Assembly (NCBI RefSeq): GCF_005938745.2
Contig: NZ_VCBX02000001.1
Coordinates: 5,594,501 to 5,658,500, forward strand
Direction of reading: 5' to 3'
Length of the DNA: 64,000 nucleotides
Source of the DNA: Rhodococcus sp. KBS0724
Lineage (GTDB): Bacteria; Actinomycetota; Actinomycetes; Mycobacteriales; Mycobacteriaceae
Below are positions 18,336-57,151 of the stretch, piece after piece (within the stretch, counting starts at the first letter, position 1; each line of letters opens with the position of its first letter). The notes beneath the pieces are model-generated. The model worked only from the letters and a program-made list of their open reading frames with translations, did not search any database and was not told where the DNA came from. Both the position numbers and the translations under genes were made by a program.

Positions 18336-18352
18336 TGAGAAGAATATTCTCA
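18336..18352. promoter_or_regulatory. Regulon operator, TGAGAAGaatATTCTCA
   Basis: 17-bp palindrome, seven-base arms with a 3-bp spacer and one arm mismatch. It lies 77 bp upstream of the VOC-SDR-TetR operon (minus strand). It matches the sites at 27255, 32929, 44630, 45431, 50937 and 57135. Confidence 0.75.
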
Positions 18353-18441
18353 CTTCAGGGCGCGCAAAGCAAGGGAATTGCAGGATCCCACCAAACCGTC
18401 ACGTGACCAACGCTTTCCACAGCAACACCGCTTCCACGACA

Positions 18442-18488
18442 ATGCTCCGGCTGTTGATACACGATATGCGCGTCAACAGCCGGAGCAT
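18442..18488. terminator. 16-bp perfect inverted repeat, likely transcription end
   Basis: Arms 18442-18457 (ATGCTCCGGCTGTTGA) and 18473-18488 pair perfectly around a 15-nt loop. It lies just past the 3' end of the minus-strand gene that stops at 18537, so it probably ends the TetR/hypothetical transcript. There is no U-run, and a role as a binding site is also possible. Confidence 0.5.
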
Positions 18489-18536
18489 GTGGCTTCTCGA
18501 TCCTTCCCGCACGGACTGTGCGCGGGAAGTAGTTCA

Positions 18537-19046
18537 CTAACCGACTGACACGAGGTTCACTCCGTCCGCCGGACACTTTCCGAACAGGCTGACCCCACGA
18601 AACGATTCGGTTGCACTGACAGGATCGGGCGAACTGGATGCGGCAGCAAGCGCATGTGACTTGAAAACCATTGCAGCGCGGCTCAACTGGTGCGAACTCG
18701 GCCCGAAGTGATGAGCAAGATCGCTCGGAACCTTGTCACCCCACAACGTGACGTCGATGATGCCGCGATCCAGAGTATCGAGCAATCCTTCACGCACCAT
18801 CGCATTGGACTCGAACAGATCACCCGCCAGAGCAATCGCCTGCGGGCGCGGCCCGTTGGGCGAGGCCATAACAGACTCCAAATCCAACGTGGTTGCGCCG
18901 AGAATCTGCAACGGCCGAGTGTTCTCGTGCTTTTCGATGATTACCGTGACGTCCCAGCCGGCCATCACCTGGTCGAACATCCACCCGCCGGCATGACGCA
19001 CCACGTCGGCAACCGTCGGCGCGAGGACGGCCAGGCGGTACCTCAG
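18537..19046 (-). CDS. Conserved-looking hypothetical protein, probably CTG start
   Basis: 169 residues if it starts at a CTG at 19046, which overlaps the TetR stop (CTGA) and follows AGG. No ATG, GTG or TTG lies near; the only in-frame ATG (19136) would overlap the TetR gene by 94 bp. The sequence begins (M)RYRLAVLAPTVADVVRHAGGW and has an alternating hydrophobic pattern like a Rossmann-type fold (WDVTVIIE, AIALAGDLF). I do not recognise the family. The coupling suggests function with the TetR or with the acyl-CoA genes beyond. Confidence 0.6.
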   Translation of the reverse strand: MRYRLAVLAPTVADVVRHAGGWMFDQVMAGWDVTVIIEKHENTRPLQILGATTLDLESVMASPNGPRPQAIALAGDLFESNAMVREGLLDTLDRGIIDVTLWGDKVPSDLAHHFGPSSHQLSRAAMVFKSHALAAASSSPDPVSATESFRGVSLFGKCPADGVNLVSVG

Positions 19047-26680: not shown

Positions 26681-26719
26681 AGGAAATTATATTCTCCATA
26701 CTAGAGAATCAAGCTCTCT
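26681..26719. promoter_or_regulatory. Two degenerate copies of the regulon operator
   Basis: AGGAAATtatATTCTCC (26681-26697) and AGAGAATcaaGCTCTCT (26703-26719) each keep one good half-site of TGAGAAYnnnATTCTCA with the same 3-bp spacer. They lie between the minus-strand beta-oxidation operon and the divergent PPOX gene and could serve both. Confidence 0.5.
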
Positions 26720-27254: not shown

Positions 27255-27271
27255 TGAGAATCACATTCTCA
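27255..27271. promoter_or_regulatory. Regulon operator, TGAGAATcacATTCTCA
   Basis: The best copy: both seven-base arms pair perfectly around a 3-bp spacer. It lies 113 bp upstream of the first Rieske gene, between the PPOX gene and that gene. Confidence 0.8.
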
Positions 27272-27384
27272 TTAGAGAGAGTGCATCCTTCAGAAATCTG
27301 TACCAGCCGAACCAGCCGCAGCGCACAGCCAATTCACGCTTCGGCATCGCGGCGGAACACGAACATGAGAACGAGAGGTAGACC

Positions 27385-28650
27385 GTGCCACACTTCGCCA
27401 AACCGGCCGCGGGAAGCTGGACCGAACAGTATCCCCACCTCGGCACCGCACCCGTCGACTACACCGACTCCATCGACCCCGAACACTACGAAGCCGAACG
27501 CGAAGCAATCTTCAAACGCACCTGGCTCAACGTCGGACGCGTCGAACGAGTCCCCCGCACCGGCAGCTACTTCACCAAAGAACTCGCCGCCGTCAACACC
27601 TCCCTCATCATCGTCAAAGGCGCCGACGGAACCATCCGCGCATTCCACAACGTCTGCCGACACCGCGGAAACAAGCTGGTATGGAACGAAATCCCCGGCG
27701 ACGAAACCTCAGGCACCTGCCGCCAATTCACCTGCAAATACCACGCCTGGCGCTACGACCTCGACGGCAAACTCTCCTTCATCCAACAAGAAGGCGAATT
27801 CTTCGACGTCGACAAGCAGGACTACGGACTCGTCGAAGTCACCTGCGAAACCTGGCAAGGCTTCATCTTCGTCAACCTCAACCCCCAGCAAAGCCTCGAG
27901 GAATACCTCGGCCCCATGCTCAAGGGCGTCGAAGGCTACCCCTTCCACGAAATGACCGAGGTCTACAGCTACCGCGCCGAAATCGGCAGCAACTGGAAAC
28001 TCTTCATCGACGCATTCGCCGAGTTCTACCACGCCCCCATCCTGCACCAGAAGCAGGCAACCAAGGCCGAAGCAGACAAACTCGCCGCCACCGGCTTCGA
28101 AGCACTCCACTACGAACTCGACGGACCCCACTCCCTCATCTCCTCATGGGGTGGAATGGCACCGCCGAAAGACCTCAACATGGTCAAGCCCATCGAACGC
28201 GCACTCCGCAGCGGCCTCTTCGGCCCCTGGGACCGCCCCGACATCGAAGGCCTCGACCCCCTACCCCCCACACTCAACCCCGCCCGCCACGCAGCCTGGG
28301 GCGAAGACAGCTTCACCATCTTCCCCAACTTCATGCTCCTCATCTGGGCACCAGGCTGGTACCTCACCTACCACTACTGGCCCACCGCAGTCGACAAACA
28401 CATCTTCGAAGCCAGCCTCTACTTCGTACCCCCCAAGAACACCCGCGAACGACTCGCCCACGAACTCGCCGCAGTCACCTTCAAGGAATACGCACTCCAA
28501 GACGCGAACACCCTCGAAGCCTCACAAACAATGATGGCCACCCGCACCGTCACCGAATTCCCCCTCTGCGACCAAGAACTCCTCATCCGCCACCTCCACC
28601 ACACCGCACGAACACACGTCAAGGAGCACCGCGATGCCACTACCAACTGA
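27385..28650 (+). CDS. Rieske non-haem iron oxygenase, catalytic subunit (copy A)
   Basis: 421 residues from a GTG start. The Rieske [2Fe-2S] ligands are Cys91-x-His93 and Cys117-x2-His120; 23 residues separate the two pairs, longer than the usual 15-17, with an extra Cys at 112. The mononuclear-iron site is visible as His216 and His221 (EFYHAPILH), Asp373 (ALQDANT) and bridging Asp209. It should hydroxylate an unactivated or aromatic carbon using electrons from a reductase such as the one at 57187. The coding strand is unusually C-rich and G-poor compared with its neighbours. It overlaps the next gene by 17 bp. Confidence 0.9.
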   Translation: MPHFAKPAAGSWTEQYPHLGTAPVDYTDSIDPEHYEAEREAIFKRTWLNVGRVERVPRTGSYFTKELAAVNTSLIIVKGADGTIRAFHNVCRHRGNKLVWNEIPGDETSGTCRQFTCKYHAWRYDLDGKLSFIQQEGEFFDVDKQDYGLVEVTCETWQGFIFVNLNPQQSLEEYLGPMLKGVEGYPFHEMTEVYSYRAEIGSNWKLFIDAFAEFYHAPILHQKQATKAEADKLAATGFEALHYELDGPHSLISSWGGMAPPKDLNMVKPIERALRSGLFGPWDRPDIEGLDPLPPTLNPARHAAWGEDSFTIFPNFMLLIWAPGWYLTYHYWPTAVDKHIFEASLYFVPPKNTRERLAHELAAVTFKEYALQDANTLEASQTMMATRTVTEFPLCDQELLIRHLHHTARTHVKEHRDATTN

Positions 28651-28957
28651 CTTCGCCGACCTCGAACGCTTCGCCGACTGGATCCTCCCCACCGAAGGCG
28701 AACGCTACGCAAAACGCCTCGCCTCCACCATGCCCGAAATGCAAGAGTTCTACGACGCCGCCTTCAACCGACTCGAAGACGCCATCACCTACTGCGACAA
28801 ATTCCCCCTCGACGACCTCCCCGACGACGCACGAGCACTCGTACACCTCATGCAATCCTTCGTCATGGTCACCTTCCCCATCGAAGTCTGGAAACAACCC
28901 CGCGTCCCCGACAGCGGCGCCGCCTACGTAGCCGTCACCGTCGAACCCGTCGTCTGA
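28634..28957 (+). CDS. Small Rieske-partner protein (copy A), uncharacterised
   Basis: 107 residues, overlapping the Rieske gene by 17 bp. Mostly helical and acidic, with the conserved core MQEFYDAAFNRLEDA, then YCDKFPLDDLP and IEVWKQP. It is far shorter than the usual beta subunits of ring-hydroxylating dioxygenases (about 170 residues, SnoaL-like fold) and not like them. A diverged relative follows the third Rieske gene and an identical copy follows the second, so it is probably a structural or assembly partner of these oxygenases. I know no name for it. Confidence 0.8.
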   Translation: MPLPTDFADLERFADWILPTEGERYAKRLASTMPEMQEFYDAAFNRLEDAITYCDKFPLDDLPDDARALVHLMQSFVMVTFPIEVWKQPRVPDSGAAYVAVTVEPVV

Positions 28958-29066: not shown

Positions 29067-29244
29067 ATTTTCGCCAGCACAACCCGGGATCTCGAAATAT
29101 GTTGCACCACAATGCACAATTACGGACACAATTTTATCGCCACTGCATAGGATACGAATACTCTTGCAACAGAACGCAATTCTTGACAATTGACGGCACA
29201 CTGGGAAGCATCGGGATCGCCGCCACAATCGAAGGACCTATGCG

Positions 29245-30510
29245 ATGGCACTCTTTCCCAAACCCGCCGAAGGAAGCTGGACCCAGCACTATCCGGATGT
29301 CGGAACCGGGCCGGTGTCCTACCAGGACTGCATCTCGCCCGAGTTCTACGAAGCCGAACGCGAGGCCGTTTTCAAGCAGGCGTGGCTCAACGTCGGTCGC
29401 GTCGAGGACGTCACCGACAACGGTCGCTATTTCACCAAGGAAATCGAGGTCGCCAATACCTCACTCATCATCGTGCGCGATCTGGAGGGACAGGTTCGCG
29501 CCTTCCACAACATCTGCCGTCACCGCGGAAACAAGTTGGTGTGGAACGAGATTCCCAGCGCGGAGACCAGTGGTTCCTGCCGCGCCTTCACCTGCAAGTA
29601 CCACGCGTGGCGCTACTCACTCGACGGGTCGCTGACGTTCGTGCAGCAGGAGGGCGAGTTCTTCGACTTGGACAAGGCCGATTACGGACTGGTCCCGGTG
29701 CACTGCGACGTCTGGGCAGGGTTCATCTTCGTCAATCTCGCAAAGGAACCGCCCACTACTCTCACCGAGTTCCTCGGCTCGATGATCACAGATCTGGCGG
29801 GATATCCGTTCGAGGAGATGCCCGAGCGCTACGATTTCAGCGCCGACATCGACTGCAACTGGAAGGTTTTCCTGGACGCATTCCAGGAGTACTACCACGT
29901 CCCGTCGCTGCATACCCAGGAAGCGACTCCCGACGCCAGACCCCAGATGATGAAGGGTTTCGAGGCTCCGCACTATCAACTCGACGGACCCCATCGAATG
30001 GTGTCGACGTCCAGCGTTCCGCGTCGCCTGTGGCCGGCCAATTTCCAGTACCCGATCGAAATGGAAACGCGCAGCGGATTGTTCGGACCGTGGAACGAGC
30101 CCGATCTCGGAGGCGAGATGTCCGGAACCAATCCTGGACGCATCAAGGCGTGGGCGGCCGACAATTTTCAGATCTTCCCCAACCTGGAAATCTTGATCTG
30201 GGCCAGCGGGTGGTATCTCGTCTACCGCTACTGGCCTACGTCACACAACACGCACCGGTTCGAGGGCACACTCTTCTTCCCACCGGCCAAAACCGCCAGT
30301 GACCGCGCTGCGCAGGAATGCGCCGTTGTCATGTTCAAGGAGTTCGCTCTGCAGGATGCGGGTACCCTCGTCGGAACTCAGCAGGGTCTCGATGCACTGG
30401 GCAGCTCGAGCGACTTCCCGCTCAACGACCAGGAACTTCTCGTCCGACATTTCCACAAATCCATTGCCGACTGGGTCGCGAGCTACCAAGGTTCCGGGGT
30501 GAACGTATGA
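29245..30510 (+). CDS. Rieske non-haem iron oxygenase, catalytic subunit (diverged paralogue C)
   Basis: 421 residues, the same length as the duplicated oxygenase, with the Rieske ligands at the same places (Cys91, His93, Cys117, His120) and the same long spacer with Cys112. The iron-site segment is EYYHVPSLH and the later ALQDAGT Asp is kept. Most changes lie in the substrate-pocket half, so it probably takes a related but different substrate. Codon use is ordinary for the region. It has its own upstream region after a terminator, and no clear TGAGAAT-type operator was seen there. It overlaps its small partner by 4 bp. Confidence 0.9.
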   Translation: MALFPKPAEGSWTQHYPDVGTGPVSYQDCISPEFYEAEREAVFKQAWLNVGRVEDVTDNGRYFTKEIEVANTSLIIVRDLEGQVRAFHNICRHRGNKLVWNEIPSAETSGSCRAFTCKYHAWRYSLDGSLTFVQQEGEFFDLDKADYGLVPVHCDVWAGFIFVNLAKEPPTTLTEFLGSMITDLAGYPFEEMPERYDFSADIDCNWKVFLDAFQEYYHVPSLHTQEATPDARPQMMKGFEAPHYQLDGPHRMVSTSSVPRRLWPANFQYPIEMETRSGLFGPWNEPDLGGEMSGTNPGRIKAWAADNFQIFPNLEILIWASGWYLVYRYWPTSHNTHRFEGTLFFPPAKTASDRAAQECAVVMFKEFALQDAGTLVGTQQGLDALGSSSDFPLNDQELLVRHFHKSIADWVASYQGSGVNV

Positions 30511-30848: not shown

Positions 30849-30950
30849 AAATTCCCACTGTTCGAAATGACCCACTGACTCAGGTGAGCAGCCCCTCACC
30901 TCAAGAATCGAGACATACGCGCGAGCAATGTCGCGGGAAACGGTGTAGCC

Positions 30951-32857: not shown

Positions 32858-32928
32858 GTGTGTAGACCGACCGAACCCGGCCAACGTTGACGACGAGTGA
32901 GGACTGTGGAAATATTGCGCTCAGTTAA

Positions 32929-32945: not shown

Positions 32946-33001
32946 AAGATGAGATCGAAAATATTGCAGCTTTCGATGACAGCAAAGGAAACGAACGTCT
33001 G

Positions 33002-33538: not shown

Positions 33539-33541
33539 ACC

Positions 33542-42420: not shown

Positions 42421-42430
42421 GTCAGGCTCC

Positions 42431-44629: not shown

Positions 44630-44646
44630 TGAGAATACCATTCTCG
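44630..44646. promoter_or_regulatory. Regulon operator, TGAGAATaccATTCTCG
   Basis: One mismatch from the perfect palindrome. It lies between acyl-CoA dehydrogenase pair 2 (-) and the TetR gene (+), well placed to control both and to give autoregulation of the TetR. Confidence 0.8.
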
Positions 44647-44761: not shown

Positions 44762-45421
44762 GTGGTGACCACGCCCAGCGAAGAGCCGGCCTGGAAGCAA
44801 CGGTCGGTCGAGCGTTCCATCAAGACCGCAAAGCTTCGCGCAGAGCAACGCGTGCAGCGATTCCTCGATGCGGCACAGTCGATCATCACCGAAAAAGGCA
44901 CCACCGACTTCACCGTCCAAGAGGTGGTCGACCGGTCGAAACTGTCCTTACGTAGCTTCTACCTCCAATTCGACGGTAAGCACGAACTACTGTTGGCATT
45001 GTTCGAAGACGCTCTGAGTCGCAGCGCCGAACAGATCCGCGCAGCGACGGCCGGAACGTCCGAACCGATGGACCAACTCAAGATCGCCGTCGAGCTTCTA
45101 TTCGAGTTCTGCCGTCCCGACCCGGCGGCGCAGCGACCGCTGTTCACCGATTTCGCCCCACAATTGCTTCTGTCACATCCGGCCGAGGTCAAGGTTGCGC
45201 ACTCCTCACTTCTCGCATTTTTTGTCGAGTTGATGGAAAAGGTGAGCGAAGCAGGCCAGTTGCGCGAGGGCGTCAACCCCCGCCGAATTGCCGCCATGAC
45301 CATGCAGACGGTGATGTTCATTGCGCAGTCCAGCGGCGCTCCGGACGACGCGACCGTGCATCCCATTTCTTCCGATGAGGTCTGGGCCTTCTGTTCTCAG
45401 GGGTTCGCACACAAGGGCTGA
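44762..45421 (+). CDS. TetR family transcriptional regulator, candidate regulon repressor
   Basis: 219 residues from GTG 44762, with GGAAGGGGG upstream; GTG 44699 in frame would add 21 residues without a good ribosome site. HTH: FTVQEVVDRSKLSLRSFYLQFDGKHELLLALF. The ligand domain is not assignable. Regulon palindromes flank it on both sides (44630 and 45431), the strongest sign that this protein binds TGAGAAYnnnATTCTCA and is released by a pathway acyl-CoA or acid. Confidence 0.85.
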   Translation: MVTTPSEEPAWKQRSVERSIKTAKLRAEQRVQRFLDAAQSIITEKGTTDFTVQEVVDRSKLSLRSFYLQFDGKHELLLALFEDALSRSAEQIRAATAGTSEPMDQLKIAVELLFEFCRPDPAAQRPLFTDFAPQLLLSHPAEVKVAHSSLLAFFVELMEKVSEAGQLREGVNPRRIAAMTMQTVMFIAQSSGAPDDATVHPISSDEVWAFCSQGFAHKG

Positions 45422-45430: not shown

Positions 45431-45447
45431 TGAGAACTTCATTCTCA
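45431..45447. promoter_or_regulatory. Regulon operator, TGAGAACttcATTCTCA
   Basis: One arm mismatch. It lies between the TetR stop and the TesB-like thioesterase gene, 29 bp before its start codon. Confidence 0.75.
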
Positions 45448-45476: not shown

Positions 45477-46304
45477 ATGTCCGAGTTATGGAACGACCTC
45501 CTCGCCTGCCTCGACCTGCAACCGCAGACGACCGGACGAACTGATACCAACAAGAATGCGACCACCCTCGTTTTCGAGGGCCCTAACTTGCATTTGACGT
45601 ACCACCGACTCTTCGGCGGGCAGATTCTCGGTCAGTTCGTCCGCGCGGCCGAACTGACCTGCCCGAACAAAAGCATCAAGTCCCTTCACTCCCTGTTTGC
45701 CCGGGAAGGTAGCGCCGACGAGACCGTCCGCTACGAAGTGACGCGTCAGCACGAAGGCCGTTCCTTCGCCACACTGACCATCGTGGCGCGCCAATCCAAA
45801 GGCGTCATCGCTACATCGCTGATCTCGATGCACGCTCCCGAGGACGGCCCGGATCGGCAGTCCGAGAACATCATTGCGCCGCTACTCGGCGAAGAGTTCC
45901 GGACCGACGTCGACCTGATCCCGTGGGAAATACGCACCGACGTCGACCTCAACTCCACCGACATCGGTGCACCCGATTTCGAGATGTGGATGCGCACACC
46001 ACAAGTGGGCAAGAATCTTGCGCCCGCCCTCGCTACCTACGCCACCGACCTCACGCTGATCGGCACGGCCCTGCGCCCCGTCGACGGCTTGAGCCAACTC
46101 GGCAACGGAACCACCTTCACCTCCGCAGTCACCTCACACAACCTGTGGTTCCACCGACCCTTCACGACCGACTCGTGGCTACTACTGCGCCAGCACAGCC
46201 CCGTCACAGCTCACGGCCGTTGCTTCGGCCGCGGCGACGTGTTTTCCGAGGACGGCAACCTCGTTGCCTCGTACGCGCAGGAAGCTTTACTTCGCCTACC
46301 GTGA
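45477..46304 (+). CDS. Acyl-CoA thioesterase II (TesB-like)
   Basis: 275 residues, usual TesB length. Double-hotdog pattern: FGGQILGQFVRAAELT near the start, HSLFAREGSADETVRYEVTRQHEGRSFAT, and in the second half SHNLWFHRPFTTDSWLLLRQHSPVTAHGRCFGRGDVFSEDGNLVAS. It hydrolyses acyl-CoA, probably to recycle CoA or drain dead-end esters. A regulon operator sits in its promoter region, and the DapB-like gene follows 42 bp downstream. Confidence 0.9.
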   Translation: MSELWNDLLACLDLQPQTTGRTDTNKNATTLVFEGPNLHLTYHRLFGGQILGQFVRAAELTCPNKSIKSLHSLFAREGSADETVRYEVTRQHEGRSFATLTIVARQSKGVIATSLISMHAPEDGPDRQSENIIAPLLGEEFRTDVDLIPWEIRTDVDLNSTDIGAPDFEMWMRTPQVGKNLAPALATYATDLTLIGTALRPVDGLSQLGNGTTFTSAVTSHNLWFHRPFTTDSWLLLRQHSPVTAHGRCFGRGDVFSEDGNLVASYAQEALLRLP

Positions 46305-46346
46305 CAACCTTTGCTCGGTAGAATCGACCGACCTTCGAGGTGTGAT

Positions 46347-47426
46347 ATGAGTTCGACTACCCTGTCCGACAGTACTGTTCAGGAAACTACCGTGCCCCGG
46401 CCCTATCGGGTGGTTCAGTGGGCCACCGGCAACATCGGCACACGCTCGCTGCGCGGCGTCATCGAACATGCAAATCTGGAATTGGCCGGTGTATATGTAC
46501 ATTCGGCCGACAAAGCCGGTCGCGACGCCGGTGAACTGTGCGGCATCGACGACGCCGGGGTGCTGGCCACCAACAGCATCGACGACGTCATCGGGTTGGG
46601 CGCGGATTGTGTGCTGTACATGCCGCGCCAGTTCGACGCCGACGAAGTATGCCGCATCCTCGCCGCCGGCTCGAACATCGTCACCACCCGGGGAGAATTT
46701 CACTACCCCGCCGGAATGGACCCAGCGCTGCGCGAACGTATCGAAGCCGCGTGCCGAACCGGAGGAACGTCGATCCACAGCACCGGCAGTAGCCCCGGAT
46801 TTGTGACCGAGGCGCTCCCCCTGGTGTTGAGCTCGATTCAACGTCGCCTGAACCACCTGACAATCAGTGAATTTGCCGATCTCTCCCAACGTAATTCACC
46901 CGGGATACTTTTCGACGTCATGGGATTCGGGCTCGCCCCGACCGATTTCGACGAGAACCGGATCGCACACGTGAAGTCCAACTTCGGTCCGTCACTGCAG
47001 ATGGTCGCCGAATCGATCGGCCTGCCACTGGACTCCGTGGACGCCCACGGCGAGCTGGCCACCACCCCAACTTCGGTCCAGATCGCAGCAGGAACCCTGG
47101 AAGCAGGCACCGTTGCCGCGCAACGAATCACGGTAAGCGGCACACATGCCGGCCGAGAACTTCTGAGCTTCTGCGCAACGTGGTACTGCTCGAGCGAACT
47201 CGACGTCGACTGGAAGATTCGTGACACCGGCTGGCATATCGACGTCGACGGGGATGCGCCACTCGACATCGATCTACGTTTCCCCATCCCGCTGGAGAGG
47301 ATGAGCGAGACTGCCCCGGCCTACACGGCCAACCGGGCAGTCAACGCCATCCTCTCTGTCTGTACTGCGGCTCCGGGAATCCGTACGACACAAGATCTTC
47401 CGCAGATTATTGCCGATCTGATCTAG
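46347..47426 (+). CDS. Dihydrodipicolinate reductase/amine dehydrogenase-like NAD(P) oxidoreductase
   Basis: 359 residues from ATG 46347, after GAGGTG. The N-terminal Rossmann domain (YRVVQWATGNIGTRSLRGVIEH) resembles the DapB-like group that includes 2,4-diaminopentanoate dehydrogenase; actinobacteria carry many of unknown function. A central STGSSPGFVTEALPL and a C-terminal domain complete it. No amine substrate is suggested by the neighbours. Its stop overlaps the stop of the convergent MeaB gene (CTAG). Confidence 0.8.
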   Translation: MSSTTLSDSTVQETTVPRPYRVVQWATGNIGTRSLRGVIEHANLELAGVYVHSADKAGRDAGELCGIDDAGVLATNSIDDVIGLGADCVLYMPRQFDADEVCRILAAGSNIVTTRGEFHYPAGMDPALRERIEAACRTGGTSIHSTGSSPGFVTEALPLVLSSIQRRLNHLTISEFADLSQRNSPGILFDVMGFGLAPTDFDENRIAHVKSNFGPSLQMVAESIGLPLDSVDAHGELATTPTSVQIAAGTLEAGTVAAQRITVSGTHAGRELLSFCATWYCSSELDVDWKIRDTGWHIDVDGDAPLDIDLRFPIPLERMSETAPAYTANRAVNAILSVCTAAPGIRTTQDLPQIIADLI

Positions 47427-48359: not shown

Positions 48360-49499
48360 TCACGGAGCCGGAACCTCGATGACCGTCGCCGAACCCATAC
48401 CGCCACCGGCGCACATGGCTGCAACACCGATTCCGCCGCCGCGGCGTCGCAGCTCGTGCACCAGAGTCACCAGCATGCGCGCACCGGTGGCTGCCACGGG
48501 ATGCCCGAGAGAACATCCGCTGCCGCTGACATTGACGCGGTCAGCGTCGATTCCGAGCATCTTGATCGTCGCCACGCACATCGCCGCGAACGCCTCGTTG
48601 ATCTCGAACAGATCCACGTCGGCCAGCGACATTCCCGCGCGTGCCAACGCCTTCGGAATTGCCTCGACCGGAGCCAGACCCGTGAAGGCGGGATCAACCG
48701 CGACAGATGCCCACGACTTGACGGTTCCCAATCCCGGCATTCCCAGATCGCTGCTGGCGATCGTGAGAACCGCAGCAGCGTCGTTGGCGCCGCTCGCATT
48801 TCCGGCGGTGATGCTGAATCCTTCGATCTCGGGGTGCAGCACCTTGAGCGAGCCGAGCTTCTCCAGGCTCGTCTCGCGGCGCGGATGCTCGTCGACGGAG
48901 AAGAGTCCGTGAGGTGTGCTGATGGGCACGATCTCTTCTTTGAACCGCCCCTCGTCGATGGCGCTCACTGCCTTCTGGTGCGAGAGCAGAGCCCACGTGT
49001 CCATGTCCTCGCGCGAGACTCCGGCCTTCACTGCGGCATTCCAGCCCACCGTGATCGACATGTCCTTGTTCGGTGCATCGGGGCGATCCGGGTGCGTCGG
49101 GGACATCCACGGCACAAATTCGCCGTCGACGCGGAACAAGGATCGCGGACTGGTCGACGCGGAGTTGACGCCACCGGCGATGATCAGCTTGTCCATCCCG
49201 GAGCGGATGGACCCTGCAGCGGCCTGCACGGCACCCAGGCTGGCCGCACAGTGCCGGTTCAGTGCCAGGCCTGGCACTGTGGTCAGGCCTGCGGTAATTG
49301 CCGCGTGGCGGGCGATCACGCCGCCGCCGTACAGGCCCTCGGCAAGCATGACGTCGTCGATCTGGCTGGCATCGAGAGTTTCTGCTGCCGCCGCAACGAC
49401 ATGGTGAGCGAGGTCGTGAGCGGTGGTGTCGCGCAACGTTCCCTTACCCGCGGTACCGATGGGGGTTCGCAGTGCGGAGACGATAATTGCTTCAGGCAT
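48360..49499 (-). CDS. Acetyl-CoA C-acyltransferase (thiolase)
   Basis: 379 residues from the ATG at 49499, overlapping the ligase stop by 8 bp. Thiolase residues: Cys84 (NRHCAAS), His333 (LGHPVAATGAR) and Cys363 (AAMCAGGGMG), with INEAFAA. It ends beta-oxidation cycles by cleaving a 3-ketoacyl-CoA; a propionyl-CoA product would fit with the MeaB gene that follows, but that is speculation. The operon reads ligase, thiolase, MeaB. Confidence 0.9.
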   Translation of the reverse strand: MPEAIIVSALRTPIGTAGKGTLRDTTAHDLAHHVVAAAAETLDASQIDDVMLAEGLYGGGVIARHAAITAGLTTVPGLALNRHCAASLGAVQAAAGSIRSGMDKLIIAGGVNSASTSPRSLFRVDGEFVPWMSPTHPDRPDAPNKDMSITVGWNAAVKAGVSREDMDTWALLSHQKAVSAIDEGRFKEEIVPISTPHGLFSVDEHPRRETSLEKLGSLKVLHPEIEGFSITAGNASGANDAAAVLTIASSDLGMPGLGTVKSWASVAVDPAFTGLAPVEAIPKALARAGMSLADVDLFEINEAFAAMCVATIKMLGIDADRVNVSGSGCSLGHPVAATGARMLVTLVHELRRRGGGIGVAAMCAGGGMGSATVIEVPAP

Positions 49500-50937
49500 G
49501 GGTGTTCTCCAATTCGGCCAGCAGAACGCGGCGCAGTAGTTTTCCGGTTTCGGTCTTCGGGAGTTCGTGTCGGAACACGACGATGTCGGGAGTCTTGGAC
49601 GATCGCAGCCGTTCCTTGACCCACGCCTTGATCTCTGCTTCATCGACATCGCCGACGAGGACGGCAACTATCCGTTGTCCCCATTCAGGATCCGGAACGC
49701 CGATCACGGCAGCCTCGACAATGGCGGGATGCGCAAGAAGCACGTCCTCGATTTCTGCGGGGGCGATGTTCTCACCCCCTCGGATGATGGTGTCGTCCGC
49801 GCGTCCTTCGATGAACAGGAAACCCTCGGAGTCGAGTCGACCGAGATCACGCGTGGCGAACCAGCCATTCTCGTCGAGCACACTCCGGTTGCCGTATTCG
49901 CCGGAAATCTGCTCGCCCCGAACGAATACCAGGCCGGTGACGCCGGCCCCGACCGGATCGCCGTCCTCGCTGCGCACCTCGATCTCGATGCCCGGCAGCA
50001 TTTTTCCGACGGACCCGAGTCGGTCACGCACTGCCGGATCGGCAGAGGCAAAGGCAATCCGGTGATCGTCGGGGCCGAGAACTGCCACCGACGACGCTGT
50101 CTCCGTGAGGCCGTAGGCATTGACGAATCCGGTATCCGGGAAGCTTCGCAGCGCGTGCTCGAGTACCGGTCTGGGTGTTCTCGATCCGCCGTACGCCAAA
50201 CTTGCCAGCGAGGGAGTATTTGCATCGTTCTCCCCCAACTCGGCGACAACACGCGCCAGCATCGTAGGAACGAGCATCGCGTGCGTGACGCTTTGGCCCC
50301 GGACGGTGTCGAGCCAGATTTTGGCGTCGAAAGCAGCCAGATAGACGATCCGACGCCCGGTGTAGAGGTTGGAGAGCAGATTCGTCAGACCTGCGATGTG
50401 ATAGGGCGGAACAGCGACCAACGATGCGTCGTTCTCGTCGGCCGACGAGAACTCCATGGTGTTGAGCACGTAGGCGAGTAGATGCCGATGCCGGAGTATC
50501 GCAGGCTTGGGATCAGCGGTGGTTCCGCTGGTGTAGATGATTGCGGCGACGCTGTCACCGTCCCACTGTGGAGCCGGGGCATCGGATTCGGCCGAATCCT
50601 GCTGTATCGCTTCGATGTCGATCAGATCGTCGAGATCATCGAGACGCAGCACCAGTGCACCGGGGTGGCGGTCGATCAGGGCAGCCAACTGCTGATCGCC
50701 CAGTCTGTAGTTGAGTGGCACGAACGGAACCCCGGCCATCGCGGCGCCGAACAGCGCGACGGGATACGCGAGGTGGTTGGTGCCGAGGTAGAGCACGGCA
50801 GGGTACTGCCGGAATCGGTCGGCGGCGCGGCGGGCAAGGGCAAGGAGTTGCGCGGCGGTCAATGACCGATTTTCGACGGTCACTACGGCCCGATCGCAAC
50901 TCGATGCGGCCATTTCTGCAATCATGGTGATGTTCAT
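49492..50937 (-). CDS. AMP-forming acyl-CoA synthetase/ligase
   Basis: 481 residues from the ATG at 50937 (ATG 50925 possible). ANL motifs: phosphate loop IIYTSGTTADPKPA, YGLTET, the hinge region GRADDTIIRGGENIAPAEIE and the C-terminal catalytic Lys in PKTETGKLLRR. It activates a free acid to its CoA ester. The regulon operator at 50937 overlaps its start codon, so repressor binding would block transcription directly. Divergent from the SDR at 50990. Confidence 0.9.
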   Translation of the reverse strand: MNITMIAEMAASSCDRAVVTVENRSLTAAQLLALARRAADRFRQYPAVLYLGTNHLAYPVALFGAAMAGVPFVPLNYRLGDQQLAALIDRHPGALVLRLDDLDDLIDIEAIQQDSAESDAPAPQWDGDSVAAIIYTSGTTADPKPAILRHRHLLAYVLNTMEFSSADENDASLVAVPPYHIAGLTNLLSNLYTGRRIVYLAAFDAKIWLDTVRGQSVTHAMLVPTMLARVVAELGENDANTPSLASLAYGGSRTPRPVLEHALRSFPDTGFVNAYGLTETASSVAVLGPDDHRIAFASADPAVRDRLGSVGKMLPGIEIEVRSEDGDPVGAGVTGLVFVRGEQISGEYGNRSVLDENGWFATRDLGRLDSEGFLFIEGRADDTIIRGGENIAPAEIEDVLLAHPAIVEAAVIGVPDPEWGQRIVAVLVGDVDEAEIKAWVKERLRSSKTPDIVVFRHELPKTETGKLLRRVLLAELENTHA

Positions 50938-50953
50938 GAGAACATTATTCTCT
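50937..50953. promoter_or_regulatory. Regulon operator, TGAGAACattATTCTCT
   Basis: Two arm mismatches. It lies in the 52-bp gap between the divergent ligase (-) and SDR (+) genes and touches the ligase start codon. Confidence 0.7.
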
Positions 50954-50989
50954 CAACAGAGATCAATACTTGCAAGAAGGGAAATCAAA

Positions 50990-51751
50990 ATGCAGATCAA
51001 CGGTTGTTCCGCCATCGTCGTCGGTGGCACCGGAGGGCTCGGCGAGGCTACGGTTCGCCGTCTCCACTCGGAGGGAGCCAAGGTCGTCGTGGCCGACGTG
51101 GCCGACGACAAGGGCAAGGAACTCGAGCGCGAACTCGGCGTTCGATACGTCCGCACCGATGCCGGTGACGAAGACAGCGTTCTTGCCGCAATCGCCGAAG
51201 CCGAATCGCTGGGTCCGCTGCGCATCTCGGTCGACTGCCACGGCGGCCCCGCCGGTGGCGGCCGGCTGGTCGGCAAGGACGGCAGCGCCATGAGCCTCGA
51301 GGCGTTCACGACCACGATCAATTCGTACTTGATCTCGGTATTCAACGTGATGCGTCTGTCGGCAGCGGCGATGGGCCGCCAGGAGGCTCTCGAGACCGGC
51401 CGCGGCGTCATCATCAACACGGCATCCATCGCCGCGTACGAAGGCCAGATCGGCCAGCTCCCGTACTCCGCAGCCAAGGGCGGCGTTGTCGGCATGACTC
51501 TTGTTGCCGCACGCGACCTCTCGCCGCTCGGCATCCGAGTCGTGACGATCGCGCCCGGCACATTCCTGACGCCTGCATACGGCAAGGCCGGCGACCAGCT
51601 CGAGGCGTACTGGGGACCGCAGGTTCCGCATCCCCAGCGTATGGGCCGCTCACCGGAGTACGCCACGCTGGTCTCCTCGATCGTGGAGAACGACTACCTC
51701 AACGGCGAGGTCATCCGCCTCGACGGCGCACTGCGGTTCCCCCCGAAGTAA
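50990..51751 (+). CDS. SDR family oxidoreductase (HSD10-like)
   Basis: 253 residues from ATG 50990, after AGAAGGG. GGTGGLGEAT nucleotide-binding motif, the Ser region NTASIAAY and YSAAK active site are present, with LDGALRFPPK at the end. The overall pattern (IVVGGTGGLG start, GQIGQLPYSAAKGGVVGMTL, ARDLSPLGIRV) is that of the type II 3-hydroxyacyl-CoA dehydrogenases. It probably oxidises a 3-hydroxyacyl-CoA in the regulon pathway. Confidence 0.9.
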   Translation: MQINGCSAIVVGGTGGLGEATVRRLHSEGAKVVVADVADDKGKELERELGVRYVRTDAGDEDSVLAAIAEAESLGPLRISVDCHGGPAGGGRLVGKDGSAMSLEAFTTTINSYLISVFNVMRLSAAAMGRQEALETGRGVIINTASIAAYEGQIGQLPYSAAKGGVVGMTLVAARDLSPLGIRVVTIAPGTFLTPAYGKAGDQLEAYWGPQVPHPQRMGRSPEYATLVSSIVENDYLNGEVIRLDGALRFPPK

Positions 51752-51946
51752 CTTGCCGAACCGCGACGCCCGGGGGCGTCGGCAGCAGTACGGCGCCCCC
51801 GACCCGGTCGCGAGATACTACGAAAAGCGTTGTTCTGCAGACACAATCGAAGATTCTGGTTCTCCGATAACTTGAATCGCATTCCCATACTGTGTCCGCA
51901 TGACTTCCACATGTTCGACAATCAGCCGTCAGCGCAGGGCAGAAGC

Positions 51947-52840
51947 ATGAAATTCTGGACCGGCACGGCCTTCATGAACACCGCCGAGATGCCCGCCGTC
52001 GCAAAGATGCTCGACGAGAACGGCTATCACGGCGTCCTCGTATCGGACCATCTCATCTTCCCGCGTGAACTCAAAACCCGTTATCCTGCAACGGAAAGCG
52101 GGGTTCCGTACTGGCAACCCGACACCGAATGGCCCGATGCCTGGGTCCTCATCGGTGCAATGGCCGCAGTAACCGAGAACCTGCATTTCGGCAACAACGT
52201 CTACATCGCGCCCGCGCGCCCTATCCTCGAAGTCGCCAAACAGGTGGGCACCGCGGGAGCACTGTCCAACGGCCGGGTGTCCATTGGACTCTCTGCCGGC
52301 TGGATGCGCGAGGAATTCGAACTGCTCGGCCAGGACTTCGACAACCGCGGACCTAGACTCAACGAGATGGTTCAGGCTCTGCGAGCATTGTGGAAAGGTG
52401 GCTGGGTGTCCTGGAAGGGCGAGTATTACGACATTCCTGAAATGATGATCGAACCGCACCCGCCCGCACCGGTCCCTATTCTCTGCGGCGGCGAATCTGC
52501 TGCCGCCCTCAAACGTGCAGCGCGCTACTGCGACGGCTGGGTCGGTACTGCATACACGCTGGAAGAAGCCACAGTATGGATCGACCGAATCAAGGGTTAC
52601 CGCCGCGAATACGGACGCGAAAACGAGCCTTTCGAGATCATTCTCGGATTGTTCGACGAACGGACACCTGACCTCTACAAGCGGGCAGAAGACATCGGCA
52701 TCACCGGTGTGATGTGCTCACCCTGGGCCAACTGGGATCTCCAGCACAGCGGCGACCACTCACACTTGAAGGGAAGCGCGGAGCAGTACCGAGCCCCGAT
52801 CGAGAAGTTCGCCGAAGAGATCGTCTCCAAGTGCATGTGA
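51947..52840 (+). CDS. LLM class F420/flavin-dependent oxidoreductase
   Basis: 297 residues from ATG 51947; ATG 51911 in frame would add 12. The fold pattern is clear: MKFWTGTAFMNTAEMPAVAKMLDENGYHGVLVSDH, then RPILEVAKQVGTAGALSNGRVSIGLSAGWMREEFE and VPILCGGESAAALKRAARYCDGW. It belongs with the F420-dependent members (TIGR03619-like). It stands alone, 195 bp after the SDR, and ends at a strong hairpin. Confidence 0.85.
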   Translation: MKFWTGTAFMNTAEMPAVAKMLDENGYHGVLVSDHLIFPRELKTRYPATESGVPYWQPDTEWPDAWVLIGAMAAVTENLHFGNNVYIAPARPILEVAKQVGTAGALSNGRVSIGLSAGWMREEFELLGQDFDNRGPRLNEMVQALRALWKGGWVSWKGEYYDIPEMMIEPHPPAPVPILCGGESAAALKRAARYCDGWVGTAYTLEEATVWIDRIKGYRREYGRENEPFEIILGLFDERTPDLYKRAEDIGITGVMCSPWANWDLQHSGDHSHLKGSAEQYRAPIEKFAEEIVSKCM

Positions 52841-52901: not shown

Positions 52902-53669
52902 TCAGCTCTTCACTGCGGTGAGCTTCGCGATGTTGTCCCGGAAATCCTCGCTCTGGAAAGTCAACTCTTCGGCCGTCGTCGCAAAGTCGAGTGTGGCAAG
53001 AATCGCCCGCTCGAGGTGCATGTTCAGCAGTCGCTTGGTGCTCTCGACGGCCTGACGCGGCTGCGAGGCAATCTTTTTCGCGCATTCGACGGCGTCGGCG
53101 AGCGGATCGAGAGACACATGGTTGGCCAGGCCGAGCGTGCAGGCCTTCTCAGCTCCGATGCGCGTCCCGGTCAGTGCGTATTCCTTGGCCAGCAGCAGAC
53201 TGATCTGCAGCGGCCAGGTCAGCGGTCCGCCGTCGGCGGCAACCAGTCCGACCTGCACGTGCGGGTCGGCCAGGTAGGCGGATTCTGCGATGTAGACGAT
53301 GTCGCTCAGTGCAACGAGGCTGCATCCCAGGCCGACGGCCGGGCCGTTGACAGCCGCGATCACCGGAACCCGGCACCGAGCCATTCCGAGCACCAGATCA
53401 CGACCGTGCGCGATTGTGCGAGCCCGCATTTCGGAGTCTTCGGCCAACTCCGCGAGGTAGGAAAAATCGCCACCCGCCGAGAAAGCCTTACCGTTGCCGG
53501 TAAGCACCGCGGCACGCGCGTCACGATCCGCGCTGAGCCGCGGCCACAACTCCGCCAGGCCCGTGTGCAAGCTGTCGTTGACGGCGTTGAGCGCGTCCGG
53601 TCGATTGAGAGTGATGATCCGCAGCGAGCCTTCTGCGCGGACGTCGATCTCTTCGGGCATGTCGTACAT
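52902..53669 (-). CDS. Enoyl-CoA hydratase/isomerase family protein
   Basis: 255 residues from the ATG at 53669, one base after the acyl-CoA dehydrogenase stop and after GGGAG. Crotonase pattern: LNRPDALNAVN, GKAFSAGGDFSYL, NGPAVGLGCSL and DPHVQVGLVAADGG. The standard Glu pair is not obvious (VQVGL and DGG positions), so hydratase, isomerase or hydrolase are all possible. It ends the ligase/ACAD-pair-3 operon. Confidence 0.85.
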   Translation of the reverse strand: MYDMPEEIDVRAEGSLRIITLNRPDALNAVNDSLHTGLAELWPRLSADRDARAAVLTGNGKAFSAGGDFSYLAELAEDSEMRARTIAHGRDLVLGMARCRVPVIAAVNGPAVGLGCSLVALSDIVYIAESAYLADPHVQVGLVAADGGPLTWPLQISLLLAKEYALTGTRIGAEKACTLGLANHVSLDPLADAVECAKKIASQPRQAVESTKRLLNMHLERAILATLDFATTAEELTFQSEDFRDNIAKLTAVKS

Positions 53670-53670
53670 G

Positions 53671-54759
53671 TCAAACTCCCAATCCGAGAATGCGCGAGGC
53701 AATGATGTTCTTCTGAATTTGTGATGTCCCACCCATGACGCTCTGGGCGCGGCTGTACAGGTACGACCCGAGCATCTCGGTGTCGCGGCTACCCGCCTCC
53801 GTCAACGCTGCGTGTCCGACGGCTTGATCAACCCAGGTCATGAGGAGCTTGTCGAGCGAACCCTCCGAGCCGTGGGAGAGTCCGTCCAGCTGCTCCGACA
53901 GCCGGCGACGCACGTGCAGCCGCAGCATTTCCGTTTCCACTGCAGCCCAGGCCAATTCTGTGGACGGCGGTCCGTCGCTCCTGGCTGCGAGCTGGCGGAC
54001 CAGTTTGCCGTAGCGCGCCGCGTACCCCAGCGTGGACGGTTCACGTTCGTGCCCGACAACGGTCATGGCCAATGCCCAGCCTTCACCGGGAGCGCCGACC
54101 ATCTGATCGACCGGCACACGAGCACCGTCGAAGAGCACCTGGCCGAACTCCTTGGTGACACCGTTCATCATCTTGAGCGGACGCTGCTCAATACCGGGCT
54201 GGTCCATCGAGACGATGAATGCGGTCAGTCCGCGGTGACGCTTTGCGTCGGGTTCTGTCCGTGCCAAGAGCAGGCACCAGTCGGCGACATCGCTGTAGCT
54301 GGTCCAGATCTTGTGGCCCGCGATGACGTACTCGTCGCCCTCCCGCGTGGCGGTGGTCGTGAGCGAGGCAAGATCCGAACCCGCACCTGGCTCACTGAAT
54401 CCCTGGCACCAGCGTTCGGTGCCGTTGATCATCCCGGGAAGGAATCGGCGCCGAAGATCCTCACTGCCATGCCTGCCGAGTCCATGTACCAGGTATCCGA
54501 GACTGGGCCGAGGCGGAGCACCGGCGATAGCAAGTTCCTCGTCGACGATGACGTCGTAGACAGGTGGCAGTTCTTGTCCACCATATTCTTTGGGCCACGA
54601 AGCGCCGAAGAATCCACCGCTGTACAGCGCCTGATGCCACTCACCCTGCCGTGCCCAGTACTCGTCCCCCGAACTGGGGAATGCTTTTGCCCGCTCAGCT
54701 GCCCATGACCTCAGTCGGTCTCGGAAAGCGGCTTCTTCCGGCGAATCACGAAAGTCCAA
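53671..54759 (-). CDS. Acyl-CoA dehydrogenase, large subunit (pair 3)
   Basis: 362 residues. GFSEPGAGSDLAS and IWTSYSDVADW form the FAD/substrate site; C-terminal VMGGTSQIQKNIIASRILGLG. Glu in VVGHERE is a candidate base. It overlaps the small-subunit gene by 14 bp and is followed by the hydratase, the same layout as pair 2. It should act on a bulky CoA ester in a heteromeric complex. Confidence 0.85.
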   Translation of the reverse strand: MDFRDSPEEAAFRDRLRSWAAERAKAFPSSGDEYWARQGEWHQALYSGGFFGASWPKEYGGQELPPVYDVIVDEELAIAGAPPRPSLGYLVHGLGRHGSEDLRRRFLPGMINGTERWCQGFSEPGAGSDLASLTTTATREGDEYVIAGHKIWTSYSDVADWCLLLARTEPDAKRHRGLTAFIVSMDQPGIEQRPLKMMNGVTKEFGQVLFDGARVPVDQMVGAPGEGWALAMTVVGHEREPSTLGYAARYGKLVRQLAARSDGPPSTELAWAAVETEMLRLHVRRRLSEQLDGLSHGSEGSLDKLLMTWVDQAVGHAALTEAGSRDTEMLGSYLYSRAQSVMGGTSQIQKNIIASRILGLGV

Positions 54760-55651
54760 GGTCGATCTCCTCCAGCCTTACGGGAAACAGTTCGGTGGAC
54801 GTCAATGCCCGCCGCAGGTACACATGCACGAGGCACTCCCACGTGTTACCGATTCCGCCGTGCACCTGCACTGCGGTTTCACACACGGTTCGAGTTGCCC
54901 GCGCGCAGTAGATCTTTGCGATCCGCGCTGCCGCGATCGCCTCGGCGGGCGGCAGTTCGTCCACGGCCCACGCCGCATACCGGAGCACACTCACCGATCC
55001 TTCGATCAGCGCGAGACCTTCGGCCAGCAGATGCGCAACAGCCTGGTACGACCCGATGGCCGTGCCGTACTGCTCACGGACCTTGGCGTACTCGGTCGCA
55101 ACATGGTGGGCGCCTCGTGCTGTGCCGACAAGATCGGCGCAGGTAGCCACGAGCGCAAGTGCCTCCCACCGCGTCACATCGTCAGCCGAGATTTCGCCGA
55201 GCGAATCCCCATCCTCGAGCAACTCGGCAAAACCTCGAGTCAGATCGGCGCCGGCAGCTACCGATCCGACTCGGCCCGCGAAGGCCTTGTTCTCGCGCAG
55301 GACAAGAGCATGTTCGAGGCCTGTTGCGTCGACCGCCTCGTCACCGACAGCTATCGCCCACGTGAGCTGATCGTCGGCGACATGGCGCCGTAGATCGTCG
55401 GCAAGCACCGGCCCGAGAAACGGAACGTCGACCAATCCGCGGCCGAATTCCTCTGCGACGATGGCAACTTCGACACCAGACGCGCCGTCCGACCGGAGCG
55501 AACGCCAGCCGGTAATGGCTACCGCCTTCTCCAGACGAGCATTCCGGGTGGCATCTTCCAAATCGAGGACCGAGCCCGGCCCCAGATCGTCGGCCAGTTT
55601 TGCGGCAGCGTCACGCAGCTGCCGCTGTTCATGAGTCAGACGTACGTCCAT
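54746..55651 (-). CDS. Acyl-CoA dehydrogenase, small subunit (pair 3)
   Basis: 301 residues. No SEPGxGSD segment; the C-terminal part keeps REQYGTAIGSYQAVAHLLAEGLAL and VQVHGGIGNTWECLVHVYLRRA, with the TWE motif of partner subunits. It overlaps the ligase gene by 23 bp and the large subunit by 14 bp, so the order is ligase, small subunit, large subunit, hydratase in one operon. Confidence 0.85.
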   Translation of the reverse strand: MDVRLTHEQRQLRDAAAKLADDLGPGSVLDLEDATRNARLEKAVAITGWRSLRSDGASGVEVAIVAEEFGRGLVDVPFLGPVLADDLRRHVADDQLTWAIAVGDEAVDATGLEHALVLRENKAFAGRVGSVAAGADLTRGFAELLEDGDSLGEISADDVTRWEALALVATCADLVGTARGAHHVATEYAKVREQYGTAIGSYQAVAHLLAEGLALIEGSVSVLRYAAWAVDELPPAEAIAAARIAKIYCARATRTVCETAVQVHGGIGNTWECLVHVYLRRALTSTELFPVRLEEIDLGLS

Positions 55652-57047
55652 AGCGCTCCTTGAGTTCTCGGCGCAACACCTTGCCGGAGGGCAGGCGAGG
55701 AATTTCGGGCACGAACACCACTCGCCGTAGGCGTTTGTAGCCGGCCATGCGGCCCGCTACGAGTTCCATCAGTTCCGCTTCACCGATCGAACCGTTTGTC
55801 GCGACGGCCGCGACAATCGCTTCCCCGTCTTTCGGGTCGGGAATGCCGAACACCGCGCAATCCGCGACGTCGGGGTGTCCGTGCAGGACTGCTTCGATCT
55901 CGGCCGGCGCTACCTGGAAGCCGCGTACCTTGATCATTTCCTTGAGGCGGTCGGTGATTCGCAGCCAACCGTCATCGTCGAGATGTCCGACGTCACCGGT
56001 TCGGTACCAACCGCCGGCGAACGCGCCGGCGGTTTCCTCGTCGGGAAGATAGCCGGCCATGACCGATGCCGACAGGGCCTGGATTTCTCCGGTCTCGCCA
56101 GGGCCGAGCACATCACCGGTTTCGGTAGACACAATTCGAAGGCTCACGCCCGGTGCCGCACGCCCCACGCTGTCGAGTTGCGCACCCTCGACGGGGTTGC
56201 ACGCGATGACGGGGAGCTCACTGGCACCGTACGCCGGCATCCACCCGACACCTGTTCGCCGAGTGACTTCTTCGGCGACGCTCGGTGTCACCGGCGTTGC
56301 ACCCCACATGATGTAGCGCAGCGACGACAGATCGTACGATTCGAGCTTCGGATGGGAAGCGATAGCCAAAGCGATGGGCGCAACGGCCATTTCGACGGTA
56401 ATCCGGTCTACCTCGATGTGGTGCAGCATCGCGTCGAGATCGAATCGGCGGTGAAGTCGCAGCCACGCACCGGACTCGAGAGCCGTGACGATGTTGAGCA
56501 GACCGAGTATGTGTGAAGGCGGAGTCACGATCTGCATGCGATCGCGTTCCGTCAACTCCAGCACGTCTCGCCACTGATCGACGGCAACAGCAAACGACGC
56601 GTGAGTGTGCCGGACCGCCTTGGGTAACCCGGTTGTTCCCGAACTGAAGACGAGAACGGCATCCGACGCGGGATCGGGCTCGCCGAACGTTCCGGTGCCG
56701 CGTGTGTCGGTGCTGCACGAGACCGACTCGTCAAGGCTCAGCATCGGCATCAGTTCCGCGAGCACCGGATTGTCGCCGATCGCGTACACGGGGCTTGTCG
56801 TCGCCAGTGCGTGCGCCACCTCGACGCTCTTCCACGCCGGACTGATGAGCACGACAGCGGCACCGACGCGCCAGATCGCGAGTACCGCGACAACGAACTC
56901 CGGACGATTCGACGACATGAGAGCAACGCGTTGACCAGCCACGACGCCGTCCCGAACCAGCCGCGATGCAAGTCCGTCGGCTAGCGCTTCGAGTTCTTCT
57001 CGGCTGTATTTCTGTTCGTCGAACACAAGGACGCTCTGGCCGTTCAT
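55629..57047 (-). CDS. AMP-forming acyl-CoA synthetase/ligase
   Basis: 472 residues. Motifs: VFSSGTTGLPKAVRHTH phosphate loop, YGASELP, YRTGDVGHLDDDGW, the KVRGFQVAPAEIE hinge and the C-terminal Lys in LPSGKVLRREL, as in 4-coumarate-CoA ligase-like enzymes. It activates the acid that the dehydrogenase pair 3 and the hydratase then process. It heads the operon, divergent from the reductase gene with a regulon operator between. Confidence 0.9.
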   Translation of the reverse strand: MNGQSVLVFDEQKYSREELEALADGLASRLVRDGVVAGQRVALMSSNRPEFVVAVLAIWRVGAAVVLISPAWKSVEVAHALATTSPVYAIGDNPVLAELMPMLSLDESVSCSTDTRGTGTFGEPDPASDAVLVFSSGTTGLPKAVRHTHASFAVAVDQWRDVLELTERDRMQIVTPPSHILGLLNIVTALESGAWLRLHRRFDLDAMLHHIEVDRITVEMAVAPIALAIASHPKLESYDLSSLRYIMWGATPVTPSVAEEVTRRTGVGWMPAYGASELPVIACNPVEGAQLDSVGRAAPGVSLRIVSTETGDVLGPGETGEIQALSASVMAGYLPDEETAGAFAGGWYRTGDVGHLDDDGWLRITDRLKEMIKVRGFQVAPAEIEAVLHGHPDVADCAVFGIPDPKDGEAIVAAVATNGSIGEAELMELVAGRMAGYKRLRRVVFVPEIPRLPSGKVLRRELKERYGRTSDS

Positions 57048-57134
57048 CCTTGGCTCCTCACCGGGGGATGGGGGCTAGCGCATCCCCCGTCTCGCGTGTA
57101 CAAATGCTTCATTGAGAAGATCCTATCTCGTTTG

Positions 57135-57151
57135 AGAGAATAGTATTCTCA
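57135..57151. promoter_or_regulatory. Regulon operator, AGAGAATagtATTCTCA
   Basis: One arm mismatch. It lies between the ligase operon (-) and the reductase gene (+), 35 bp before the reductase start codon. Confidence 0.8.

Follow-up and report, generated by a model that had tools for sequence, protein, structure and literature searches.

The stretch considered here is a window of 64,000 nucleotides (64 kb) from the genome of Rhodococcus sp. KBS0724 (contig NZ_VCBX02000001.1, positions 5,594,501 to 5,658,500), in which a short palindrome precedes a series of catabolic operons. Two TetR-family regulators are encoded in the window and are called TetR44 (gene at 44762) and TetR16 (gene at 16273). 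Judged from sequence comparison, the palindrome GAGAAYnnnRTTCTC is very probably the operator of TetR44 for the catabolic operons, with TetR16 probably running a smaller set through a tandem operator. Sites were scored with a position weight matrix (PWM) built from 82 distinct 17-mers that adjoin TetR44 orthologues in other species, with R. globerulus and the window excluded. TetR44, the candidate operators of its type and the genes around them are as follows.

44762–45421, + strand: TetR44, a TetR/AcrR-family regulator of 219 aa and predicted repressor of the single-palindrome regulon; the frame is open from a GTG at 44699.
44630–44646: candidate TetR44 operator between the divergent genes for TetR44 and acyl-CoA dehydrogenase (ACAD) 2b (PWM 26.2).
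45431–45447: candidate TetR44 operator between the TetR44 stop and the TesB start (PWM 22.9).
32929–32945: candidate TetR44 operator before the operon for a carboxymuconolactone decarboxylase (CMD), Rieske copy B, a 107-aa open reading frame (ORF), amidohydrolase, SnoaL and ACAD1 (PWM 25.5).
50937–50953: candidate TetR44 operator between divergent genes for a CoA ligase (49492–50937) and a short-chain dehydrogenase/reductase (SDR); the SDR frame runs from 50924, with a likely ATG near 50990 (PWM 25.8).
57135–57151: candidate TetR44 operator between the ligase/ACAD3 operon and a flavin/Fe-S reductase (PWM 27.6).
27255–27271: candidate TetR44-type operator before Rieske copy A (PWM 26.0).
41638–44588, − strand: operon for an enoyl-CoA hydratase (ECH), ACAD2a and ACAD2b; the best Protein Data Bank (PDB) match of ACAD2a is Tcur3483.
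45477–47426, + strand: TesB-like thioesterase and a protein with a DAP_DH_C domain.
32897–38655, + strand: operon for CMD, Rieske copy B, the 107-aa ORF, amidohydrolase, SnoaL, ACAD1a and ACAD1b.
48360–52840: thiolase and CoA ligase (− strand); SDR and luciferase-like monooxygenase (+ strand).
52902–58221: ECH, ACAD3a, ACAD3b and CoA ligase (− strand); reductase with FAD, NAD and 2Fe-2S domains (+ strand).
27385–28957, + strand: Rieske oxygenase copy A and a 107-aa ORF (a ferredoxin by position only).
26681–26719: two weak palindromes 22 bp apart before a PNPOx-like gene (PWM 8.9 and 15.4); the one at 26703 is kept in R. globerulus (L020:660).

An earlier note on this DNA had placed palindromes at 18336, 27255, 32929, 44630, 45431, 50937 and 57135, and all seven are present at these positions. 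With up to three mismatches allowed, the palindrome gave 18 strand-matches in the window against an expected mean of 5.42, a number reached by none of 100 shuffles. The PWM scores of the seven sites span 22.9–27.6 and exactly these seven rank first; the next-best scores are 15.4 (26703), 12.8 (18315) and 11.0 (29169), and a first-order Markov model predicts 0.28 sites per 64 kb at a score of at least 14. The sites at 44630 and 45431 occupy positions that supplied training sites in other species; the other five do not. The palindromic core of the consensus first proposed, TGAGAAYnnnATTCTCA, stands, but its exact form does not, as GAGAAYnnnRTTCTC fits better and the outer T and A are loose. The copy at 18336 matches the motif, but it carries G instead of Y at position 7 and its partner palindrome at 18315 had been overlooked. 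The window sites lie 0–116 bp 5' of the nearest gene starts. Their description as intergenic needs qualification at two of them, since 32929 falls inside the longest possible CMD frame (from the GTG at 32897), yet 57 bp 5' of the likely ATG at 33002, and 50937 shares one base with the first ATG of the ligase frame. The two degenerate copies described at 26.7 kb do exist (26703, scoring 15.4, and 26681, scoring 8.9) but were wrongly assigned to the beta-oxidation operon, as they lie 23 and 45 bp 5' of the PNPOx-like gene (26742) and about 540–580 bp from the start of that operon.

Pattern searches were extended to the whole genome of 7,254,422 bases in three contigs. The pattern GAGAAN5TTCTC occurs 12 times, with seven copies inside the 64-kb window (binomial P 3e-12), and the same pattern read backwards occurs twice. 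The pattern KGAGAAYNNNRTTCTCM with at most one mismatch gave 16 genome matches, and its backwards-read version gave none. Strong sites outside the window were found at C1:102897 (26.9), C1:779394 (22.3), C1:5573833 (25.2, lying 20.7 kb before the window starts) and C2:49256 (20.6), and the GAGAAN5TTCTC match at C1:1832622 had no matrix score of at least 12. Adjoining these distal sites are genes for a 4HBT thioesterase, for SnoaL and SDR proteins as a pair that faces another SDR gene, and for an Amidohydro_2 protein, as well as a 140-aa ORF that matched no Pfam family. Around each of the three distal C1 sites, 3-kb loci of this genome and of R. globerulus share 90–98% identity. The site-bearing thioesterase, Amidohydro_2 and SnoaL/SDR genes outside the block are candidates for the same pathway.

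TetR44 contains an N-terminal helix-turn-helix domain (PF00440, 33.3 bits, cut-off 24), and its predicted structure is an all-helical TetR fold with a C-terminal ligand domain (mean pLDDT 84.4). No single relative stands out in the VIA-align list for this model. Relatives at E ≤1e-25 were found in 78 of 301 genomes of the family; one of these (G070, 31% identity) was dropped as a non-orthologue, leaving 77 genomes in nine genera. The loci compared are the best 80 of 439 TetR44 relatives in named genomes, and represent Rhodococcus, Aldersonia, Mycobacterium/Mycolicibacterium, Nocardia and one metagenome-assembled genome (MAG) labelled Acidobacteria. A palindrome with at most two mismatches among the ten arm positions lies upstream of TetR44 in 80/80 loci (77 with no mismatch, one with one and two with two), starting, among the matches listed, 132–139 bp ahead of the first residue of the short TetR44 form. 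A second palindrome lies downstream in 75/80 loci (56 with no arm mismatch, 13 with one and six with two). At a matrix score of at least 16, a site accompanies TetR44 at 77 of its 79 assessable loci and TesB at 19 of 20. On average, the 77 genomes with TetR44 contain 8.0 copies of GAGAAYnnnRTTCTC (median 9), and 66 of them have at least five; the 224 genomes without TetR44 hold a mean of 1.3 (median 1), and 10 have at least five (Mann-Whitney p 1.7e-33, a value that ignores relatedness). The choice of the 44762 TetR as the best candidate regulator is upheld, as a palindrome lies upstream of its gene in all 80 loci and its presence tracks site number.

The same matrix was applied to 79 named loci (1.48 Mb, L059 left out), where 222 sites scored at least 18, training sites included, and the reversed loci gave none. 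Among 50 symmetric permutations of the matrix columns, 48 gave zero or one site, one gave two and one gave 29. A chance or composition artefact was ruled out from the matrix scan, the reversed patterns, the genome site counts and the permuted matrices. Most of the 222 sites could be placed by their neighbours: 74 lie between ACAD2 or the ECH at 41638 and TetR44, three before TetR44 with no left neighbour named, 52 before CMD and three inside an over-long CMD frame, 18 before TesB, 14 before the SDR of the 50937 site (SDR50), two before the amidohydrolase, two before the DAP_DH_C-domain protein, one before Rieske A and three between ligase and reductase. The remaining 50 have no neighbour among the compared proteins and, among the matches listed, nearly all sit just downstream of TetR44. 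For site classes outside the training set, a site was found at 53/53 assessable CMD loci and 17/17 SDR50 loci; the ligase/reductase junction has a site in three loci, and a narrower test at the reductase gave 0/3.

The target genes recur together with the regulator. In the 80 loci, some of which are clipped by contig ends, ACAD2a was found in 73, ACAD1a in 72, amidohydrolase, SnoaL and ACAD1b in 70, Rieske A in 63 and CMD in 58. TesB occurs in 24/80, and the ligase at 49492 and SDR50 in 18/80, mostly Rhodococcus and Aldersonia. Among the matches listed, the gene order of the CMD operon recurs in Mycobacterium and Rhodococcus loci. In a search of 25 genomes, a Rieske B match at E ≤1e-80 was present in 20 of 21 with TetR44 and in none of the four without; the match in R. 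globerulus is only the Rieske C paralogue (58%). Among the genomes drawn, nine genera of the family share this regulator, operator and gene set, with many mycobacteria among them. TetR44 itself is 100% identical in R. globerulus, and in the nine sites that could be paired with that species all 126 arm positions are unchanged, with seven changes in 27 spacer positions. The counterpart of 27255 keeps both arms and has a changed spacer.

The palindrome at 18336 belongs to a different arrangement, whose features are these.

16273–16938, − strand: TetR16, a TetR-family regulator (PF00440, 33 bits), last gene of the operon below.
16935–18307, − strand: SDR (16935–17828) and vicinal oxygen chelate (VOC)/glyoxalase protein (17777–18307) of the VOC-SDR-TetR16 operon.
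18336–18352: one half of the VOC-SDR-TetR16 tandem operator, which fits the TetR44 matrix well too (PWM 23.8); the tandem with 18315 is conserved.
18315–18331: second palindrome, of the CAGAAN5TTCT type, the other tandem half, 21 bp from 18336 (matrix score 12.8).
29169–29185: single palindrome ACAGAACGCAATTCTTG, 60 bp before Rieske C, resembling the second tandem half and a candidate TetR16 site (PWM 11.0).
29245–32246, + strand: Rieske oxygenase C (29245–30510) and a CYP150A6-like P450 (30951–32246).

The VOC-SDR-TetR16 promoter thus carries two palindromes 21 bp apart, and the pair in relatives approximates GAGAATATGCTTCTC-N6-CAGAATGCAATTCTG. This tandem pattern was found in 10/16 genomes with a close TetR16 orthologue (at least 56% identity) and in 0/9 without one, five of those nine having TetR44 (Fisher p 0.003; 25 genomes). 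Eleven of the 12 tandem matches stand directly before VOC or TetR16, and in G170, where the two genes are separated, each has its own tandem copy; the remaining match (G119:C2) adjoins a ligase-like gene. A search of 201 genomes gave 14 close TetR16 orthologues, all within TetR44 genomes. A palindrome of the second type precedes Rieske C both here (29169) and in R. globerulus (L203:4351, CAAGAATTGCATTCTGT), which suggests that the Rieske C-P450 pair may answer to TetR16. Searching for this single palindrome with up to one mismatch matched 22/28 genomes and amounts to noise; the exact form was found in 10/16 TetR16 genomes versus 0/12 others, the pattern having been taken from some of the same loci. 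The best PDB match of TetR16 is Mce3R (E 4e-6). Since the 18336–18315 pair tracks TetR16, which is absent from many TetR44 genomes, two related circuits are indicated. The proposal of one large catabolic regulon marked by a shared operator is supported. As to a single regulator of all seven sites, six are single TetR44-type sites, and 18336 is half of the TetR16 tandem and also fits the TetR44 matrix.

Other explanations were weighed against this reading. The earlier note had named TetR16 as second candidate for the same sites, and it is very unlikely that TetR16 regulates all of them or shares them with TetR44. A good copy (18336) does lie in its operon, and similar half-sites make up its tandem operator, but the tandem pair follows TetR16, and 53 of the 77 TetR44 genomes lack a close orthologue (24 have one, the own genome included; in nine of the 53 the search gave a distant match, at 37–40% identity). 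Even so, 42 of these 53 have at least five sites, with a median of 8 versus 9 in genomes with TetR16, and the candidacy is not supported. The palindromes can hardly be kept by descent, or for another role, with no cognate TetR. Some flanks are well conserved (CMD 5' flank 0.80, TetR44 3' flank 0.72, SDR50 3' flank 0.74), but the arms are fixed (0.98–1.00) with a more variable centre and flanks, site number is low where TetR44 is absent, and paralogous Rieske clusters from eight genomes have no site scoring at least 10 in seven of eight loci, the exception lying before a CYP150-like P450 (L210:12134). It is improbable that TetR44 acts as an activator instead of a repressor. Position alone leaves the sign open, some TetR-family proteins activate, and the model of FasR, which is described as an activator, gives a weak 35-bit match (cut-off 330). 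On the other side, the sites lie close before the nearest starts and overlap promoter-like hexamers with 8–9 of 12 matches (a weak test with no background), and divergent autoregulation is the usual repressor layout.

Several observations weigh against TetR44 as reader of the single sites. Rieske A orthologues have a site directly 5' in only 2/60 loci, because Rieske A follows CMD there. The correspondence between regulator and site number is imperfect, with 11/77 TetR44 genomes below five sites and 10/224 genomes without TetR44 at five or more; in the four of these ten that were inspected, the sites are scattered over the genome. Shared descent of the loci makes their counts interdependent, and the 80 were selected as the best of 439. 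TetR44 may also bind 18336, which fits its matrix; because all 14 close TetR16 orthologues of the 201 genomes occur in TetR44 genomes, co-occurrence cannot show whether it does. The tandem and 29169 are candidate TetR16 sites assigned from position and co-occurrence.

The sites, how well they are conserved and how they go with TetR44 were computed here; from this we infer binding, repression, dimer state and ligand as follows. A TetR44 dimer would sit on one palindrome at each catabolic operon promoter, including its own divergent promoter, and block it. Release of TetR44, and with it expression of the whole pathway, would be triggered by a metabolite of that pathway, most probably a CoA thioester that the CoA ligases produce. 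TetR16 would control VOC-SDR-TetR16, and perhaps Rieske C-P450, through two palindromes 21 bp apart that include 18336. The operator offers a handle on the substrate, since the TetR44 ligand should be a pathway intermediate. With its heteromeric ACADs, Rieske oxygenases and CYP150-like P450, the gene set suggests that the substrate is a polycyclic or terpenoid/steroid-like acid, and the family and PDB matches of the window proteins name no substrate. CYP150A5, of the same P450 family as the matched CYP150A6, oxidised beta-ionone in the work of PMC6237146, which is a hint only. A fuller scheme is offered tentatively, as one possibility: a two-tier Mycobacteriaceae circuit in which TetR44 and the single sites would govern an undescribed pathway for a polycyclic terpenoid- or steroid-like acid, TetR16 and the sister tandem would govern the oxygenase/VOC-SDR branch, and both regulators would read 18336, a half-site then shared by two sensors that respond to different intermediates.

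The layout resembles that of the KstR and KstR2 cholesterol regulons of Rhodococcus and Mycobacterium, in which TetR repressors act on a palindromic operator across a large catabolic block. The targets of KstR and KstR2 include heteromeric ACADs, CoA ligases, thiolases and Rieske oxygenases, as does the TetR44 set. Against the KstR model TetR44 scores 19.1 bits (cut-off 280). The operators given in passages of PMC8228715 for KstR (TNNAACGTGTTNNA) and of PMC3068626 for KstR2 (AnCAAGnnCTTGnT) do not match GAGAAYnnnRTTCTC. According to PMC3920632, BkaR (Rv2506/MSMEG_4718) is a mycobacterial TetR under its own control, with two palindromes next to the regulator and with genes related to acyl-CoA, and in this it is like TetR44. 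BkaR differs in its operator, the core of which is GTTA(N)T(N4)A(N)TAAC, and in its branched-chain keto-acid genes. The statement that the motif is not that of KstR or KstR2 is therefore borne out, and extends to BkaR, as the operator sequences differ. QacR binds a 28-bp palindrome as a tetramer according to a passage of PMC4482099. By analogy with the larger operators of QacR and Mce3R type, the tandem palindromes of TetR16 could take two dimers, although they differ from the QacR type in being two separate palindromes about two helical turns apart. The mycobacterial TetR survey in PMC4482099 tabulates, in the part available, motifs for 30 M. tuberculosis-numbered regulators as logos. No description of the motif, regulator or cluster was recognised in the literature passages searched, with those logos outside the comparison, and since short DNA strings match primers and unrelated text, this negative is weak evidence of novelty. 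The TetR44 circuit is of a known kind, is none of KstR, KstR2 or BkaR as far as tested, and itself appears undescribed within these searches.

Some further observations concern TetR44 and its sites. Eight genomes of genus g23 (G049, G119, G131, G142, G239, G252, G280 and G285) encode a second TetR44-like protein at 56–59% identity. The contig L073, labelled as the Acidobacteria MAG, encodes TetR44 at 78% identity and is possibly a binning error. The cluster looks decayed in Mycobacterium tilburgii (L115), where its genes give fragmentary matches and two arm positions of the upstream site are mismatched. Six genomes of genus g6 (G273, G293, G288, G298, G062 and G081) have no TetR44 and hold five to eight sites each; the two inspected show scattered matches, many of them GAGAAC..GTTCTC, and another regulator is possible. 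The palindrome TGAGAATCCAATTCTCT is common to L019:1501 and L024:1501, 3-kb loci that are 93% identical and come from two genomes of the same genus, TetR44 being found in neither. The 140-aa ORF on contig C2, which has no Pfam match, is flanked by two matrix sites, L170:1500 (20.6) and L170:2064 (19.1).

Downstream of the reductase, at 58586–62107, an ABC permease and an SBP_bac_5 binding protein are encoded with no strong palindrome, and form a possible uptake system. The best PDB match of Rieske copy A is the oxygenase subunit of carnitine monooxygenase, and the 107-aa ORF beside it has no Pfam match. Rieske copies A and B lie within a 1,580-bp duplication with one mismatch (27378–28957 and 33535–35114), and both palindromes are outside it. 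The R. globerulus contigs L020 and L203 end near the Rieske A/B region, which is what a repeat would cause.

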